Source: a virus
IMG/VR virus record: IMGVR_UViG_3300009156_000233
Location: 1-24,771 of that record
DNA: 24,771 nucleotides
Strand: one strand, 5' to 3'
This document shows, in pieces, positions 2,846 to 8,407 of the stretch. A model generated the notes under the pieces. The model made no database searches. It was given only the letters and a program-made list of their open reading frames with translations, and was not told the origin of the DNA. Numbering within the stretch: the stretch's first letter is position 1; each line of letters begins with the position of its first letter. Position numbers and translations under genes: made by a program.

Positions 2846-3068
2846 CTGTGTATCGGATAATTGGGTAGTTGTCAACGTCCAAGGCATTCGGAATGCTACA
2901 TGGGGTGAAGCCTCATACGTTAGTTCAACCAACGTAGGTAAACCATTCTTTATCTCGTTGACATACAAGGGTGCTCATAACACCTTCTACTACCGAACTG
3001 AAGCCGAAGCACGCACAATCTTCAATAAGATTCGTGCAGCGATGGATAAGGAGTTCAAGAATGCCTAA
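2838..3068 (+). CDS. Hypothetical protein (76 aa)
   Basis: This 76-residue protein (MPNCVSDNWVVVNVQGIR...) looks like a small beta-rich domain followed by a helix (TEAEARTIFNKIRAAMDKEF). The ATG overlaps the previous CDS by eight bases, and its 3' end overlaps the Sak4-like gene by eight. Both flanking genes are confident, so this one is likely real. No motif or family is recognised. Confidence 0.6.
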   Translation: MPNCVSDNWVVVNVQGIRNATWGEASYVSSTNVGKPFFISLTYKGAHNTFYYRTEAEARTIFNKIRAAMDKEFKNA

Positions 3069-3873
3069 CATGAGCGACGTGAACTTTGATGCTCTCTATG
3101 TAATGATGAAAGGAGAGCCGGGTACACGTAAATCAACTCAGGCGTTATCATTTCCTGTACCACAGGAATGGTTCTCGTGGGATAGGAAGATGAACGGTAT
3201 CTACCTACCCATGAAGAAGTGGGGAATTGACCCTAAGACAATTTCTTACACGGACTATGACAACTGGAATAAAGCTCGTGCGCGCTTGGAGCAGCTTCAG
3301 ATAACGTGTCCATTTAGGACGCTGATATTTGACTCTCTCACCAGCATGTGTGACATGACACTACGTCAAACGCTGAAGATGAAGTATGGCGTAACACGTC
3401 AGTCAGGTGCAGCCGCAGGCAAGCTCATTGCAGGTATTGCAGTCAATGAGATTGAGGACTACAATGCTGAGAGTGCAGCATTGCAAGAGCTGATTGCATT
3501 GACAAAGGACATCAATGCATTTCACAAGGTGAACATCATTCTTATCGCGCACGTAGTGCAAGCTGAGTACCGCAACACGACGAACAACACAACTCACATT
3601 TCCCGCACGATAATAACTGCGGGCAAGAAAGTTGCGCCGAAAATCCCTGCTTATTGTGGTGAAGTGTATCACTTCAATATTAAGAAGGGAATGGTTGAAG
3701 GAGGAGGTGGAGATTATTCGCTCTTGACTGAGCATACAGGTGACGACTTCGCAAGAACGGCATTGGGATTGGATAGGGAGATTGTCTTTGGTGACAAGCC
3801 TCTGTATGAAACCTATTTGAAACCTGCCATCAACAAGATGAAAGAAACGTACGTACCTCTAACAAAAGTCTAG
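3061..3873 (+). CDS. Sak4-like RecA-fold ATPase (recombinase)
   Basis: This 270-residue protein has a Walker A motif GEPGTRKST (18-26), a Walker B-type strand TLIFDSLT with D91, and a strand IILIAH (159-164) typical of RecA-like ATPases. The late PKIPAYCGEVYHF segment resembles the Sak4/AAA_24 phage family. Those proteins bind ssDNA and promote annealing, usually with an SSB encoded next to them, as seen here. An in-frame ATG at 2971 would add 30 residues read from the previous gene in another frame. The start at 3061 is preferred because AAGGAG lies seven to eight bases before it. It probably works with the upstream nuclease and downstream SSB. Exact subfamily assignment needs a profile search. 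Confidence 0.75.
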   Translation: MPNMSDVNFDALYVMMKGEPGTRKSTQALSFPVPQEWFSWDRKMNGIYLPMKKWGIDPKTISYTDYDNWNKARARLEQLQITCPFRTLIFDSLTSMCDMTLRQTLKMKYGVTRQSGAAAGKLIAGIAVNEIEDYNAESAALQELIALTKDINAFHKVNIILIAHVVQAEYRNTTNNTTHISRTIITAGKKVAPKIPAYCGEVYHFNIKKGMVEGGGGDYSLLTEHTGDDFARTALGLDREIVFGDKPLYETYLKPAINKMKETYVPLTKV

Positions 3874-3888
3874 AAGGAGACTGCACAC

Positions 3889-4287
3889 ATGGCTATTTTC
3901 ACGTTCTCGGATTCTGACCTTCTCCGCAACAAGATTGTGGAGCCTGCGTGGTATGTGCTGGACATTCAGGCACATCGTGATTGGTCACCTACAAAGGATG
4001 GCCTCTCCAACAACTGCCACTACGAGACTGTCATCATGAAGAACGCTGACAGCGGCGCGGAGGAGTTTTCTGGTGTTCCGATTGAACTCCAGTTCAACGA
4101 CAAGCCCAAGGCGCGGGGATTCATTGAAGGATTCCTTCGTGGATTGGGTGTTGACGTTGCCTCTAACCAGCGGTACGATGGCAACTCCGCTGTAGGCAAG
4201 AAGATTGAAGCGTTCATTGAGAACGATACGTTCAATGGTCGTCTCATCAATCGCTGCAACCACAAGTACCGCGTATTCCGCGGCTAG
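3889..4287 (+). CDS. Probable ssDNA-binding protein (OB-fold)
   Basis: This 132-residue protein has the look of phage SSB/DUF669-type proteins: PAWYVLDIQAHRDWSPTKDG at the N-terminus, a central beta segment (CHYETVIMK...GVPIELQF), a helix (RGFIEGFLRGLGV), then VGKKIEAFIENDTFNGRLINRC. A strong AAGGAG precedes the ATG, and it directly follows the Sak4-like gene, a pairing often seen in phages. It would coat ssDNA during replication and annealing. It lacks the acidic C-terminal tail expected of many SSBs and ends in YRVFRG. A separate very acidic protein is encoded just downstream, and the polymerase carries an SSB-type tip. Function is inferred from pattern and context. Confidence 0.6.
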   Translation: MAIFTFSDSDLLRNKIVEPAWYVLDIQAHRDWSPTKDGLSNNCHYETVIMKNADSGAEEFSGVPIELQFNDKPKARGFIEGFLRGLGVDVASNQRYDGNSAVGKKIEAFIENDTFNGRLINRCNHKYRVFRG

Positions 4288-4305
4288 TTCTATTCCTACT
4301 GTCTG

Positions 4306-4324
4306 CATTTGTTGCCAACAAATG
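4306..4324. promoter_or_regulatory. 19-base perfect inverted repeat (operator or hairpin)
   Basis: CATTTGTTG, a single C, and CAACAAATG form a perfect 9-bp inverted repeat 19 bases after the SSB stop codon. As RNA it gives an eight-pair stem with a GCC loop, but no U-run follows, so it is a poor intrinsic terminator. As DNA it has the size and symmetry of a repressor-binding site. It lies at the start of the 195-base gap between the SSB gene and the acidic-protein gene. Its role is not decided by sequence alone. Confidence 0.45.
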
Positions 4325-4415
4325 TGGATACTGGACCATTACCATGCTGATCACATGGGAGAAGATGGACGAAATAAAAGTCAGGATAAAGATGTCCTGT
4401 CCAGTGGGTGCATTA

Positions 4416-4453
4416 TGGACCAGAGTAGGCGTGACCTATACTACTCTGGTCCA
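4416..4453 (+). terminator. Strong 13-bp hairpin, possible terminator
   Basis: TGGACCAGAGTAG (4416-4428) and CTACTCTGGTCCA (4441-4453) are perfect inverted copies with a 12-base loop. The downstream bases CTCTTTCATT are only modestly T-rich, so the hairpin could be a weak terminator, an RNA-processing site or a regulatory element. It sits 30 bases before the acidic-protein gene. Related TGGACC/GGTCC half-sites occur nearby at about 4332 and 4464. The symmetry is clear; the function is inference. Confidence 0.5.
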
Positions 4454-4482
4454 CTCTTTCATTAGGTCCAGCAGAGGATAAC

Positions 4483-4704
4483 ATGATGCACTTCGATGGG
4501 GAGTTTGGTGAAGTTGTAGAGGATGATCTTCCTGTACCAGCAGAGGAAGAACCTGCAAAAGAGGAGGACATTGTCATTGCTGAAGATGAAGATGATGACG
4601 ACGAGTTCGAGGACGATGATGAGGATGAGGACGAAGATGAGGTTCCTGTAGAGGAAACTACTTTCATCCCTCCTCCTCCTGATGATGAGGATTCACTCAA
4701 TTAA
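4483..4704 (+). CDS. Highly acidic small protein (73 aa)
   Basis: This 73-residue protein is dominated by Asp and Glu, especially at residues 25-53 (a run of D/E with few other residues), followed by VPVEETTFIPPPPDDEDSLN. An AGAGGA lies just before the first ATG; a second ATG at 4486 is equally usable. There is no folded-domain pattern. Such proteins can mimic DNA charge or act like the acidic tail of an SSB. The position right after a tail-less SSB makes a partner role thinkable, but this is inference. It is flanked by hairpins on both sides, so it may be a separately controlled transcript segment. Confidence 0.6.
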   Translation: MMHFDGEFGEVVEDDLPVPAEEEPAKEEDIVIAEDEDDDDEFEDDDEDEDEDEVPVEETTFIPPPPDDEDSLN

Positions 4705-4741: not shown

Positions 4742-4752
4742 GTAGAGTGATA

Positions 4753-4799
4753 GGAGGCGCATCCAATACCGGCGGGGTTACGGGTGCGCCTCCGTTTTC
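4753..4799 (+). terminator. Rho-independent terminator
   Basis: GGAGGCGCATCC (4753-4764) pairs with GGGTGCGCCTCC (4782-4793) as a GC-rich 12-bp stem with one T-G wobble, followed by GTTTTC. This is the best intrinsic terminator in the window. It ends the nuclease-Sak4-SSB-acidic transcript. The next gene starts about 20 bases later with no visible promoter, so read-through or an unrecognised phage promoter must serve the polymerase block. Confidence 0.7.
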
Positions 4800-4818: not shown

Positions 4819-5103
4819 ATGAATGAGATTCCAAAGGTCATAGGGAGAGTTATCAAGGTGAGTAAGGCGGGTTGGGGATTTATCTCTAGTAGAGATATTG
4901 AATTCACCCGTATCTTCTTTCACTGGACATCGCTCAGACAAGATACGATTCCATTCTTGGAACTCAAGACTGGAATGATGGTGGAGTTTACTCCACTGAA
5001 GATTGAGGGCAAAGGATGGAGAGCTGTGCACATTCGGGTAGTTGATAAGAAGAAAGAAGAACCCAATGACAACGCGAATCAGTTGCCCGTACTGTCACAA
5101 TGA
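4819..5103 (+). CDS. Cold-shock-domain-like protein
   Basis: This 94-residue protein matches the cold-shock fold: GRVIKVSKAGWGFISS (9-24) holds the RNP1-like KxGxGFI, IFFHWTSLR (32-40) the RNP2-like FxH, then GMMVEFTPLKIEGKGWRAVHIRVV (52-75) with the closing 'V-x-F...G-x-A-x-x-V' strands. The tail (KKKEEPNDNANQLP) is disordered. Cold-shock proteins bind ssDNA or RNA through aromatic residues on an OB-fold; a phage copy may act as an RNA chaperone or antiterminator. The start at 4819 is chosen because the longer in-frame ATG (4747) would run through the terminator stem. The ribosome site is weak (AGAG). Confidence 0.7.
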   Translation: MNEIPKVIGRVIKVSKAGWGFISSRDIEFTRIFFHWTSLRQDTIPFLELKTGMMVEFTPLKIEGKGWRAVHIRVVDKKKEEPNDNANQLPVLSQ

Positions 5104-5689: not shown

Positions 5690-5805
5690 CTATAAGGGAA
5701 CGCATTCACTACAATCGACTCAGCCGCATTCATGATGAGGGCCAGGGTCTAATATACGCATGGATCATGTCTATAATCGATGAGGTGTTCAGACATGGAA
5801 CATAA
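5686..5805 (+). CDS. Tiny hypothetical protein (39 aa)
   Basis: This 39-residue ORF (MTIRERIHYNRLSRIHDEG to VFRHGT) starts at an ATGA overlap with the previous gene and ends 11 bases inside the polymerase start. It is mostly helical, with a hydrophobic stretch LIYAWIMSIIDEVF. The coupling overlap at both ends is the main support. No function is recognised. Confidence 0.45.
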   Translation: MTIRERIHYNRLSRIHDEGQGLIYAWIMSIIDEVFRHGT

Positions 5806-8407
5806 ATATGTCCCTGGTATGGGCAGTATAGGTGCCAAGCTAATGATACTTGGCGAGGCACCCGCGCGTGAGGAAACTATACAAGGTAAACCATTCGTCG
5901 GCGCTTCTGGCCGTGAACTAGACCGCTTGTTAAGTGATGCTGGTATTCGGCGTGGTGAATGCTGGATAAGTAATGTCTGCAAGTATGAAGTCCCTCCAAA
6001 CGAATTTCGCAAAAAGCTGCCATTCCATATCCGCGCTCGGGATCATGGCATTGATATGGACCAGCAGCTAGCAGAGTTGAGGACAGAGATTGAAGAAATT
6101 AAGCCTAACACAATACTCGCTCTCGGTGGGACTGCTCTATGGGCATTGTCCGGGAAAACTAAAATATCACTACACCGAGGCTCTATCATGTGGGGTATGG
6201 GGCGTAAGTTTGTTCCTACCTATCATCCCGCGCATCTGTTACATAGTGCTGCGGGTGGAGAAATCAAAGGTTATTGGAACCGACAAGTAATGATATTCGA
6301 CATGAAGCGGGCACATGTCGAGTCACTGACTCCGACATTAGAATTGCCTAGCCGCACTCTCCAGATATGTCGAAACTCCGGTGAACTATATCAGTTTCTC
6401 GACAGATATAAAGACTGTAAGAAACTGTCAGTTGATATAGAGGCAGGTGGTCATTGCCTGCCCATCTGTGTCGGACTCTCATTCAACAAGTCTCATGGTA
6501 TGTGTATTCCCTTGTGGAATAAGGATAGCATATCAGACATACCTACTTCAGACCTTGCAACTATATGGCTGATGTTAGCCAAGATTCTATGGGAGAAACA
6601 AATTGTCGGACAGAATTTCAATTACGACCGGGACAAACTTCGCAGACTCGGTTTTGCCATCCAACGTATCCACTCTGATACATTACTCAAGGCATTTGCT
6701 ATTAACCCTGAACTCCCAAAAGGGCTTGCATTCCTTACATCTATCTATACCCGAGAACCCTACTACAAAGACGAGGGTATGTATGAGGGGGAACTTAGAG
6801 ATTTATTCATGGGGTGCGCGCGTGATAGTTGTGTCACGCTCGAAATAGAAGAAGCGATGGATGAGGATGTAGATGAATTGGGTGTAAGGAAGTTCTATGA
6901 GAATTTCCTAATGACACTACCCGACTTCTATGCCGAGATAGAGAATAATGGATTCGACGTGAATGAGAGAGTGCGAAGTGAACTAGTACAGAAGTATGTA
7001 GAGTGGGATGAACGACTCGGATTTGAGATGTTCCAACTCGCAGGCGCGGATGTCAATCCATCATCTCCATTGCAGGTTCACAAGCTACTATTCGATGACT
7101 GGAAACTACCCTACAGACAAGGAACAGGTGAGGAGGAGCTAACTGCTCTGTTAAATCTTCAGACAGGTGTTAAGTTCCCTGCACATAGAGAATGGATAGA
7201 GAAGTGTTTGGAGCGTCGGCGCGTGCGTAAGACGATAAACACTTATCTAATGGCGATTCCAGACTTCGATGGTAAGATGCGGACTACCTGTTTTATGTGC
7301 CTCGAAACAGGTCGCACTTCTACAGGTCAGCAAGATCCCCCAATAAGACCCCTCGTAGATACAGTCGGTAAAGGTGCCAAGAAAGACATGAAAGTTATGG
7401 GCACAGCGTTTCAGGTATTCACTAAGCATGGTGATATCGGAGCTGATGTGCGTTCAATGTATGAACCTGAGCGCGGCTATATCTTCGTCCAACTTGACTC
7501 GTCACAAGCTGAAGCGCGTGTAGTGTTCAATCTCGCAGGTGATGAACAAGCATTAAAGGATATTGATGAGCACGATTACCACGCTCTCACTGCTTCTTGG
7601 TTTTTCGGTGGCACTGAATCTGATTACTCTAAGAAGGTATTGGGTTATGAAAGCCCTATTAGATTCGCAGGGAAAACTCTCCGCCATGCGGGGCATCTTG
7701 CAGCAGGCAAACGACGCGCAGCTACAGAACTTAACACGCAAGCCCGTAAGTACAAGATTCCGATTACTGTTAATGAGGCTACTGCTGAAAGGGCTTTAAA
7801 GATATTCCACGCCAAACAGCCTAAGATCCAGCAAGTGTTCCATCATGAAGTAATCGAATGCATTAAACACAACCGGCGCTTGATTGCGCCTCTGCCTTGG
7901 GGGATTGATGCAGAACGAGGTGGTGTGCGTATATTCTATGAACGATGGGGTGACGACTTATTCCGAGAGGGACTCGCCTATCTCCCACAACGAGCTGTCA
8001 CTGATAATACCAAAGCGGCTGGTATCAGAATTAAGAGAGGATTCCCAGAGGCGAAAATCATTCTTGAAGCACATGACGCACTTCTTTTCGCAGTGCGAAT
8101 CGAGTATCTCGACGACTTTATCCCTCTAGCTAAGAAGGAGATGGAGCGTCCGATTAACTTCCTTCATTGTAGCTTACCACGTCGCTACCTGAAGATTCCA
8201 TGTGACGTGGAAGTAGGCGAGAACTATCGTGACCTAAAGAAATTCAGTCGGAAGGATGAGCCAGTTAAGATTGAACTACCTGAACAAATACGTGCAAGAC
8301 CACTAACTGTAACTGAACAATTCCTAATGACTGATGAAGATGTAAGAGATGAAATGTTCAGGAAAAGAGAAACTAGTAAAACAGCAGATGATGACATTCC
8401 ATTCTAA
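5795..8407 (+). CDS. UDG-domain family A DNA polymerase
   Basis: The protein has 870 residues in three parts. Residues 15-160 are uracil-DNA glycosylase-like (GEAPAREE 20-27, GKPFVGASG, PTYHPAHLL with H144); the four cysteines of Fe-S UDGs are not apparent. Residues 205-360 are a DEDD 3'-5' exonuclease (D214 and E216; NFNYD with D278; D344, with Gly where the Exo III Tyr is usual). From about 375 is the PolA polymerase: TGRTS 505-509, motif A LDSSQAEAR (D568, E573), motif B R623-K627-H631, motif C HDA (D761). There is no 5'-3' exonuclease domain. UDG-PolA fusions occur in SPO1-like phages. The protein ends DDDIPF, like bacterial SSB. GAGGTG at 5782-5787 favours the 5795 start over 5780. This is the likely replicative polymerase. 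Confidence 0.93.
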   Translation: MEHKYVPGMGSIGAKLMILGEAPAREETIQGKPFVGASGRELDRLLSDAGIRRGECWISNVCKYEVPPNEFRKKLPFHIRARDHGIDMDQQLAELRTEIEEIKPNTILALGGTALWALSGKTKISLHRGSIMWGMGRKFVPTYHPAHLLHSAAGGEIKGYWNRQVMIFDMKRAHVESLTPTLELPSRTLQICRNSGELYQFLDRYKDCKKLSVDIEAGGHCLPICVGLSFNKSHGMCIPLWNKDSISDIPTSDLATIWLMLAKILWEKQIVGQNFNYDRDKLRRLGFAIQRIHSDTLLKAFAINPELPKGLAFLTSIYTREPYYKDEGMYEGELRDLFMGCARDSCVTLEIEEAMDEDVDELGVRKFYENFLMTLPDFYAEIENNGFDVNERVRSELVQKYVEWDERLGFEMFQLAGADVNPSSPLQVHKLLFDDWKLPYRQGTGEEELTALLNLQTGVKFPAHREWIEKCLERRRVRKTINTYLMAIPDFDGKMRTTCFMCLETGRTSTGQQDPPIRPLVDTVGKGAKKDMKVMGTAFQVFTKHGDIGADVRSMYEPERGYIFVQLDSSQAEARVVFNLAGDEQALKDIDEHDYHALTASWFFGGTESDYSKKVLGYESPIRFAGKTLRHAGHLAAGKRRAATELNTQARKYKIPITVNEATAERALKIFHAKQPKIQQVFHHEVIECIKHNRRLIAPLPWGIDAERGGVRIFYERWGDDLFREGLAYLPQRAVTDNTKAAGIRIKRGFPEAKIILEAHDALLFAVRIEYLDDFIPLAKKEMERPINFLHCSLPRRYLKIPCDVEVGENYRDLKKFSRKDEPVKIELPEQIRARPLTVTEQFLMTDEDVRDEMFRKRETSKTADDDIPF
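8387..8404 (+). other. SSB-type C-terminal tip on the polymerase
   Basis: The last six codons before the polymerase stop encode Asp-Asp-Asp-Ile-Pro-Phe. This is the terminal hexapeptide of E. coli SSB and many bacterial SSBs, which binds PriA, RecO, RecQ, exonuclease I and Pol III chi. It follows a Lys/Arg/Thr/Ser-rich linker (RKRETSKTA), as a flexible tail would. The identity is seen directly; the partner role is inference. Confidence 0.75.

Follow-up and report, generated by a model that had tools for sequence, protein, structure and literature searches.

A tail-less SSB and a separately encoded ultra-acidic protein beside a Sak4-like ATPase: a possible split SSB tail in a family of viral loci

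In most SSBs, the OB domain shares its chain with a disordered acidic tail, which competes against ssDNA for access to the OB cleft and recruits partner proteins. The available portion of PMC5686142 treats an acidic tail as characteristic of SSBs from prokaryotes and phages, and presents Enc34 ORF6, T7 gp2.5 and T4 gp32 as alike in joining an OB fold to an acidic element that is held to compete for DNA and recruit partners. For Enc34, the same portion reports that the acidic C-termini sit in the sheets of neighboring SSB molecules, and that their removal allows dsDNA binding (PMC5686142). A comparable dependence is described for HK620, where, in the accessible sections of PMC5928155, the binding of Sak4 to SSB-covered ssDNA depends on the final six residues of the SSB; those sections also place as many as 80% of sak4 genes beside an ssb gene.

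The locus examined here resembles HK620 in that Sak4 is encoded beside a DUF669-type SSB, but the SSB of HK620 itself carries a C-terminal tail, ending in NDYPPF (PMC5928155, accessible sections), whereas the SSB of this locus has none. The locus belongs to IMGVR_UViG_3300009156_000233, a linear virus record of 24,771 bp that was analyzed over its whole length (hereafter, the window; all window features cited lie on the plus strand). Consistent with the original prediction, ORFs for a Sak4-like ATPase, a tail-less SSB and an ultra-acidic protein were found in a row at 3061-4704. The ATPase (270 aa, 3061-3873) matches phrog_124 (E 2.5e-15) and Pfam AAA_24 (34.2 bits, cut-off 27), and its structure model (pLDDT 83.7) matches Rad51/RecA structures with a best E of 5.5e-8; it is assigned to the Sak4 group on this RecA-core fold together with phrog_124, the Sak4 profile. 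The canonical Walker A consensus is GxxxxGK[ST], from which the window ATPase departs, reading GEPGTRKS (3112-3135). All 94 relatives read have either this form or GEPGLRKS, with Arg at the expected position of the last Gly. The same gene block includes a PD-(D/E)XK nuclease, a predicted recombination exonuclease (1552-2505; Pfam PDDEXK_1 25.3 bits, cut-off 22; phrog_1218 exonuclease, E 8.6e-13). The start of the nuclease gene holds an inverted repeat (1587-1642) with 20-nt arms that are 90% complementary. A tblastn search of named phages with the window Sak4 and two SSBs as queries found no relative.

The SSB (132 aa, 3889-4287) is recognized chiefly by its fold. The structure model is confident (mean pLDDT 92.9), and its best solved match is the OB-fold protein PrgE of plasmid pCF10 (PDB 8s4s; Z 11.5, rmsd 4.0, 114 aligned residues), at a sequence identity of 8%; other SSB, PriB and RPA OB folds match at Z 5-6, and a viral-library fold search returned matches named DUF669/SSB. 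For the window SSB, PHROG gave no hit and Pfam none above cut-off; 27 of 47 aligned relatives match phrog_378 (SSB) weakly (E up to 1, best 1.4e-4). Searching PDB sequences with the SSB profile gave two matches with E near 0.9, which we take as noise. The chain ends in NHKYRVFRG, with no acidic tail. Among the matches listed, an acidic tail is likewise absent from all 99 distinct SSB entries, and in 98 of them the chain stops no more than 14 residues past the KYR motif, the exception being an SSB (L197) that ends in KSQYRAPRS. In this respect the family differs from Enc34 ORF6, T7 gp2.5 and T4 gp32, whose acidic element is described as being in cis (PMC5686142, available portion).

The gene for the ultra-acidic protein (73 aa) lies downstream at 4483-4704. 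Asp and Glu make up a fraction of 0.51 of its residues, and its net charge is -36. The conservation of this gene order was assessed in related loci collected from IMG/VR by scans with the SSB, Sak4 and their relatives, two of these scans contributing the best 80 of 156 and the best 80 of 218 relatives. Removing identical SSB/acidic pairs left 99 distinct entries, 91 of them extending 600 nt or more beyond the SSB. Defined as an ORF with at least 15 Asp/Glu in 30 residues and a start within 900 nt after the SSB, an ultra-acidic ORF is present downstream in 88 of these 91 distinct loci among the matches listed; L012, L014 and L102 are the three without it. The gap between the two genes has a median of 86.5 nt (range -58 to 469), and when SSBs are clustered at 90% identity the acidic gene follows in 66 of 69 clusters, again among the matches listed. 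At a stricter threshold of 17 Asp/Glu in 30 residues, 89 of 7496 distinct ORFs qualify (at least 35 aa, both strands, from the related loci then collected); all 89 are the post-SSB ORF, and none lies elsewhere. The prediction had been open to refutation by related phages lacking the acidic gene or carrying it at another place, and the comparison speaks for the predicted order instead. A more distant SSB group, recovered by a scan with L197, has an acidic gene that reaches the 17-in-30 threshold at 15 of 16 loci, a set that includes the L197 contig again as well as near-identical contigs; one locus (L215) has a weaker acidic ORF, 14 in 30, at 572 nt after the SSB. The acidic gene is not always the next ORF: in two loci a 73-aa ORF lies between it and the SSB (L167:3775-3996 and L168:2028-2249).

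A fused counterpart of this pair of genes is found in actinophages and gives the split-tail reading its firmest backing. Taking the window polymerase as a lead pointed to Gordonia phage Axym and Mycobacterium phage Muddy. In both, a phrog_124 Sak4 gene is followed by one whose product has, in a single chain, an OB domain and then a long acidic tail. All ten actinophage SSBs that were read—those of Axym and Muddy, and eight others picked from the 24 listed among 280 matching records—have such a cis tail, whose most acidic 30-residue stretch holds 17 to 27 Asp/Glu. The gene preceding the SSB matches the Sak4 profile phrog_124 in the three phages tested (Axym, Muddy and Shrew), is annotated as an ATPase in six others, and is hypothetical in Maco7; an exonuclease near the ATPase occurs in actinophages with a cis-tailed SSB as well. 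Axym gp38, Muddy gp41 and Shrew gp86 strongly match phrog_14876 and phrog_3724, and the same two profiles are matched by 17/47 (E up to 1, best 5.4e-6) and 11/47 (E up to 1, best 0.0036) of the window-family SSBs, respectively. Homology of the OB domains is drawn from these shared profiles. An Axym protein of 183 aa, the length of gp38, ranked seventh in the viral fold search (TM 0.71 by query length), and direct hhalign comparison of the window-family profile with single sequences gave modest probabilities of 50% for Axym and 25% for Muddy. The alignment places the start of the cis tail at the point where the window SSB ends (four actinophage rows). The actinophage SSBs, then, have an acidic tract directly after the OB domain in the same chain, whereas the window family has two proteins. 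The two forms also differ in composition, in that a Lys/Ala-rich stretch is found in eight of the ten cis tails and is not shown by the trans proteins. The profile phrog_14876 is labeled DNA polymerase, yet the SSB-like Axym gp38 matches it over 183/183 positions (see also L165:10573-11124); the label looks wrong.

On balance, we consider it probable, from comparison of sequences, that the acidic protein serves as an SSB tail in the form of a separate molecule. The parts are known ones in an unusual and strongly conserved arrangement, and the split tail is well supported by the comparison of the trans loci with the cis-tailed actinophage proteins; the original prediction that the tail function is divided between two genes gains support in the same way, and the prediction as a whole, which extended to the polymerase, is supported in part. 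In the mechanism that we envisage, the two parts of the SSB would be separate polypeptides from neighboring genes, and, when ssDNA is absent, a basic patch on the SSB—the cleft or the C-terminal strand—would be the docking site of the acidic protein. So docked, the acidic protein would keep the SSB off dsDNA or RNA until ssDNA displaced it. It may also help to recruit Sak4 and other partners via a short peptide that varies between phages. The SSBs of the window family are about neutral (mean net charge -0.8), so docking would require a local basic patch; the conserved basic residues near the C-terminus (R118, R122, K126, R128 and R131) are a possible candidate site. By analogy, a stand-alone acidic protein could act as the HK620 and Enc34 tails do, without covalent linkage. 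The acidic part is nevertheless dispensable, given the three loci without it and given Mel-JY34, a Desulfofustis phage and ctMlz233, whose candidate SSBs have no acidic tail and in which no acidic ORF was found among the translated neighbors. In a literature search of open-access papers, no report of a separately encoded SSB acidic tail was recognized. If the split-tail reading is correct, it would offer a natural, separately encoded tail whose functions could be probed by supplying or withdrawing a single protein, and it could account for acidic hypothetical ORFs next to phage recombination genes.

The separation of the two genes would allow the tail-to-SSB ratio to be set independently, perhaps via an intergenic hairpin. 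A perfect 13-bp stem-loop with the loop GCGTGACCTATA lies between the SSB and the acidic gene (4416-4453). Stems of at least 10 bp occur in 35 of 91 SSB-acidic gaps, compared with 33 of 455 random stretches, and 44 of 63 gaps have fold energies below z -2, though against single-base shuffles (30 each). In several relatives, the loop GTGACCTA or a GGCCTA form is kept while the stem sequences differ. A terminator-like stem-loop, with 12-nt arms that are 92% complementary and followed by GTTTTCT, lies 3' of the acidic gene (4753-4793), although it was not among the results of a consensus terminator scan. The hairpins in the gap and after the gene may together set the tail-to-SSB ratio. Sigma-70-like promoters in the window between 2500 and 6000 are at chance level (six found, 5.9 expected).

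Other roles for the acidic protein have to be weighed against that of an SSB tail. Ocr-like proteins are small acidic proteins that imitate DNA, and the acidic protein could be a counter-defense DNA mimic of this kind, blocking host restriction or a nucleoid protein and placed beside the SSB for regulation only. The high net negative charge of the window protein, the low sequence conservation and what looks to be a small, early-type gene would suit such a role. Genes for counter-defense DNA mimics usually vary in place and presence, however, and the acidic gene is fixed after the SSB in nearly all of the loci; the fusion of the acidic tract to the SSB in the homologous actinophage proteins also argues against a mimic, and we regard this role as unlikely.

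A further alternative concerns short peptides within the acidic proteins. The acidic protein could bind the host's sliding clamp, the beta-clamp, through such a peptide, either shutting down host replication or tethering phage proteins, with the acidic part serving as a DNA-like arm; this would overlap with the split-tail explanation if both hold. The motif Q[LMI].LP[FLYI] occurs in 14 of 67 nonredundant acidic proteins, as compared with a shuffle mean of 0.00 and maximum of 1, and similar forms occur in L190 (QLEIF) and L197 (KQLPLPA); in one protein (L062) the motif is near the C-terminus. These peptides, of the QLDLPF, QLPLPL and QMELPF types, resemble the QLSLPL of Hda, a tight beta-clamp ligand, the clamp-binding consensus being QL[S/D]LF, as given in the portions available of PMC12309361 and PMC3836487. 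They differ in carrier, Hda being an AAA+ protein and the predicted motif here being on a disordered acidic protein, that of the window excluded. The PF02768 clamp domain is absent from the 32 long records (11 of 14 control genomes were positive), so the target would be the clamp of the host. Against clamp binding as the general function, 53 of the 67 acidic proteins have no Q[LMI].LP[FLYI] peptide, including that of the window, which has DDLPVP in place of a Q form. Moreover, a wider version of the motif, present in 17 of 74 rows, requires 12 or more changes when mapped on the Sak4+SSB tree, and so comes and goes or is exchanged rather than being a constant part; a scan of cellular genomes with the SSB profile also found no relative. 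We consider a primary role as a clamp ligand to be quite unlikely, and treat the clamp link, which is read from sequence, as a lead. No report of phage proteins with such a clamp-binding motif, or acting in this way on the host clamp, was recognized in the open-access papers searched. Were a clamp-binding version of the tail to exist, it would connect phage ssDNA with the host replisome in a new way.

Downstream of the acidic gene, the window encodes a cold-shock-domain protein (4819-5103, with the start at 4819 being our own reading of an ORF that, at its longest, opens at 4747; Pfam CSD 32.1 bits, cut-off 27). The acidic protein could be a partner of this protein, covering the nucleic-acid face of its OB-like domain, and a cold-shock gene does follow the acidic gene in the window and in most of the loci listed. 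But other ORFs intervene in several subfamily-2 loci, and the fused counterpart is an SSB, not a cold-shock protein, which makes such a partnership very unlikely.

The acidic gene itself looks to be coding, to judge from its substitutions and its conserved place. Pooled over nine close pairs of relatives, its pN/pS is 0.22, a value dominated by few pairs, with one pair giving much of the signal and two of the nine showing no substitution. An SD-like site of four or more bases precedes some in-frame start in 86 of 91 acidic genes, by a lenient criterion and with no control. The acidic proteins diverge fast (mean column identity of 21% over 27 sequences) and have a variable N-terminal peptide; what they share is acidity and, often, an aromatic residue inside the acidic run, the pattern [DE]3[FYW][DE]3 occurring in 19 of 67 nonredundant proteins, as against a shuffle mean of 2.67 and maximum of 9. 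A nonfunctional low-complexity ORF carried along by chance would account for the simple composition and the fast divergence, but, set against the pN/pS, the conserved place, this aromatic pattern and the SD-like sites, it is extremely improbable. Frameshifting or readthrough that would fuse the SSB and acidic ORFs was considered and rejected, since the start frames show no preference (31, 33 and 27 of 91). The overlaps of -58 nt between the two ORFs in L056, L058, L060 and L160 look like upstream-open frames.

The remaining part of the original prediction was that the SSB-type tip had moved to the polymerase. The window polymerase is a fusion of UDG and a family A DNA polymerase (875 aa, 5780-8407; Pfam UDG 80.8 bits, DNA_pol_A 70 bits), and its translation ends in DDDIPF (8387-8404), identical to the last six residues of the E. 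coli SSB, as quoted in the accessible sections of PMC5928155. The E. coli tip ends an SSB, while the window tip ends a UDG-PolA protein. The claim stands for the window but fails as a general rule, in that DIPF is the ending of only 14 of 56 distinct polymerase C-termini. For ORFs of 40 aa or more, an SSB-like end was found in 16 of the 2936 plus-strand ORFs and in 0 of the 3253 minus-strand ORFs; the 16 comprise 13 polymerases and 3 small proteins (70-73 aa). Of 32 long records, 8 have the tip pattern, once in each, on the polymerase in five and on a small separate protein in three. The tip on the polymerase is a real, odd local feature, but it is not the split tail's counterpart in general, and the analysis gives no tie between it and either the SSB or the split tail. 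The acidic protein was also considered as a bearer of the SSB tip, but the tip is absent from its 55 listed C-termini, and no acidic protein is among the 16 tip-bearing ORFs. A complementary distribution of the polymerase tip and QLxLPF was likewise rejected, since both classes, compared by eye, occur with and without the tip. A broader scheme can be proposed in which an exchangeable trans SSB tail carries a host beta-clamp peptide in about one-fifth of the phages, linking SSB-coated ssDNA and Sak4 to the clamp, with DDDIPF carried by either the polymerase or a separate small protein and the SSB functions dispersed over several mixable genes; we hold this scheme to be doubtful.

Two minor observations concern the polymerase ends and the separate tip-bearing proteins. 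Separate proteins of 66-74 aa ending in DDIPF are encoded at L040:11357-11578, L102:7559-7771 and L105:5009-5230, and further ones at L198:5818-6024, L199:5452-5652 and L200:6465-6689; in these six loci the polymerase end, where seen, is without the tip. Many of the tip-less related polymerases stop soon after a TEQF[LM]V-like stretch, and the window polymerase (8300-8404) has this stretch upstream of its tip.
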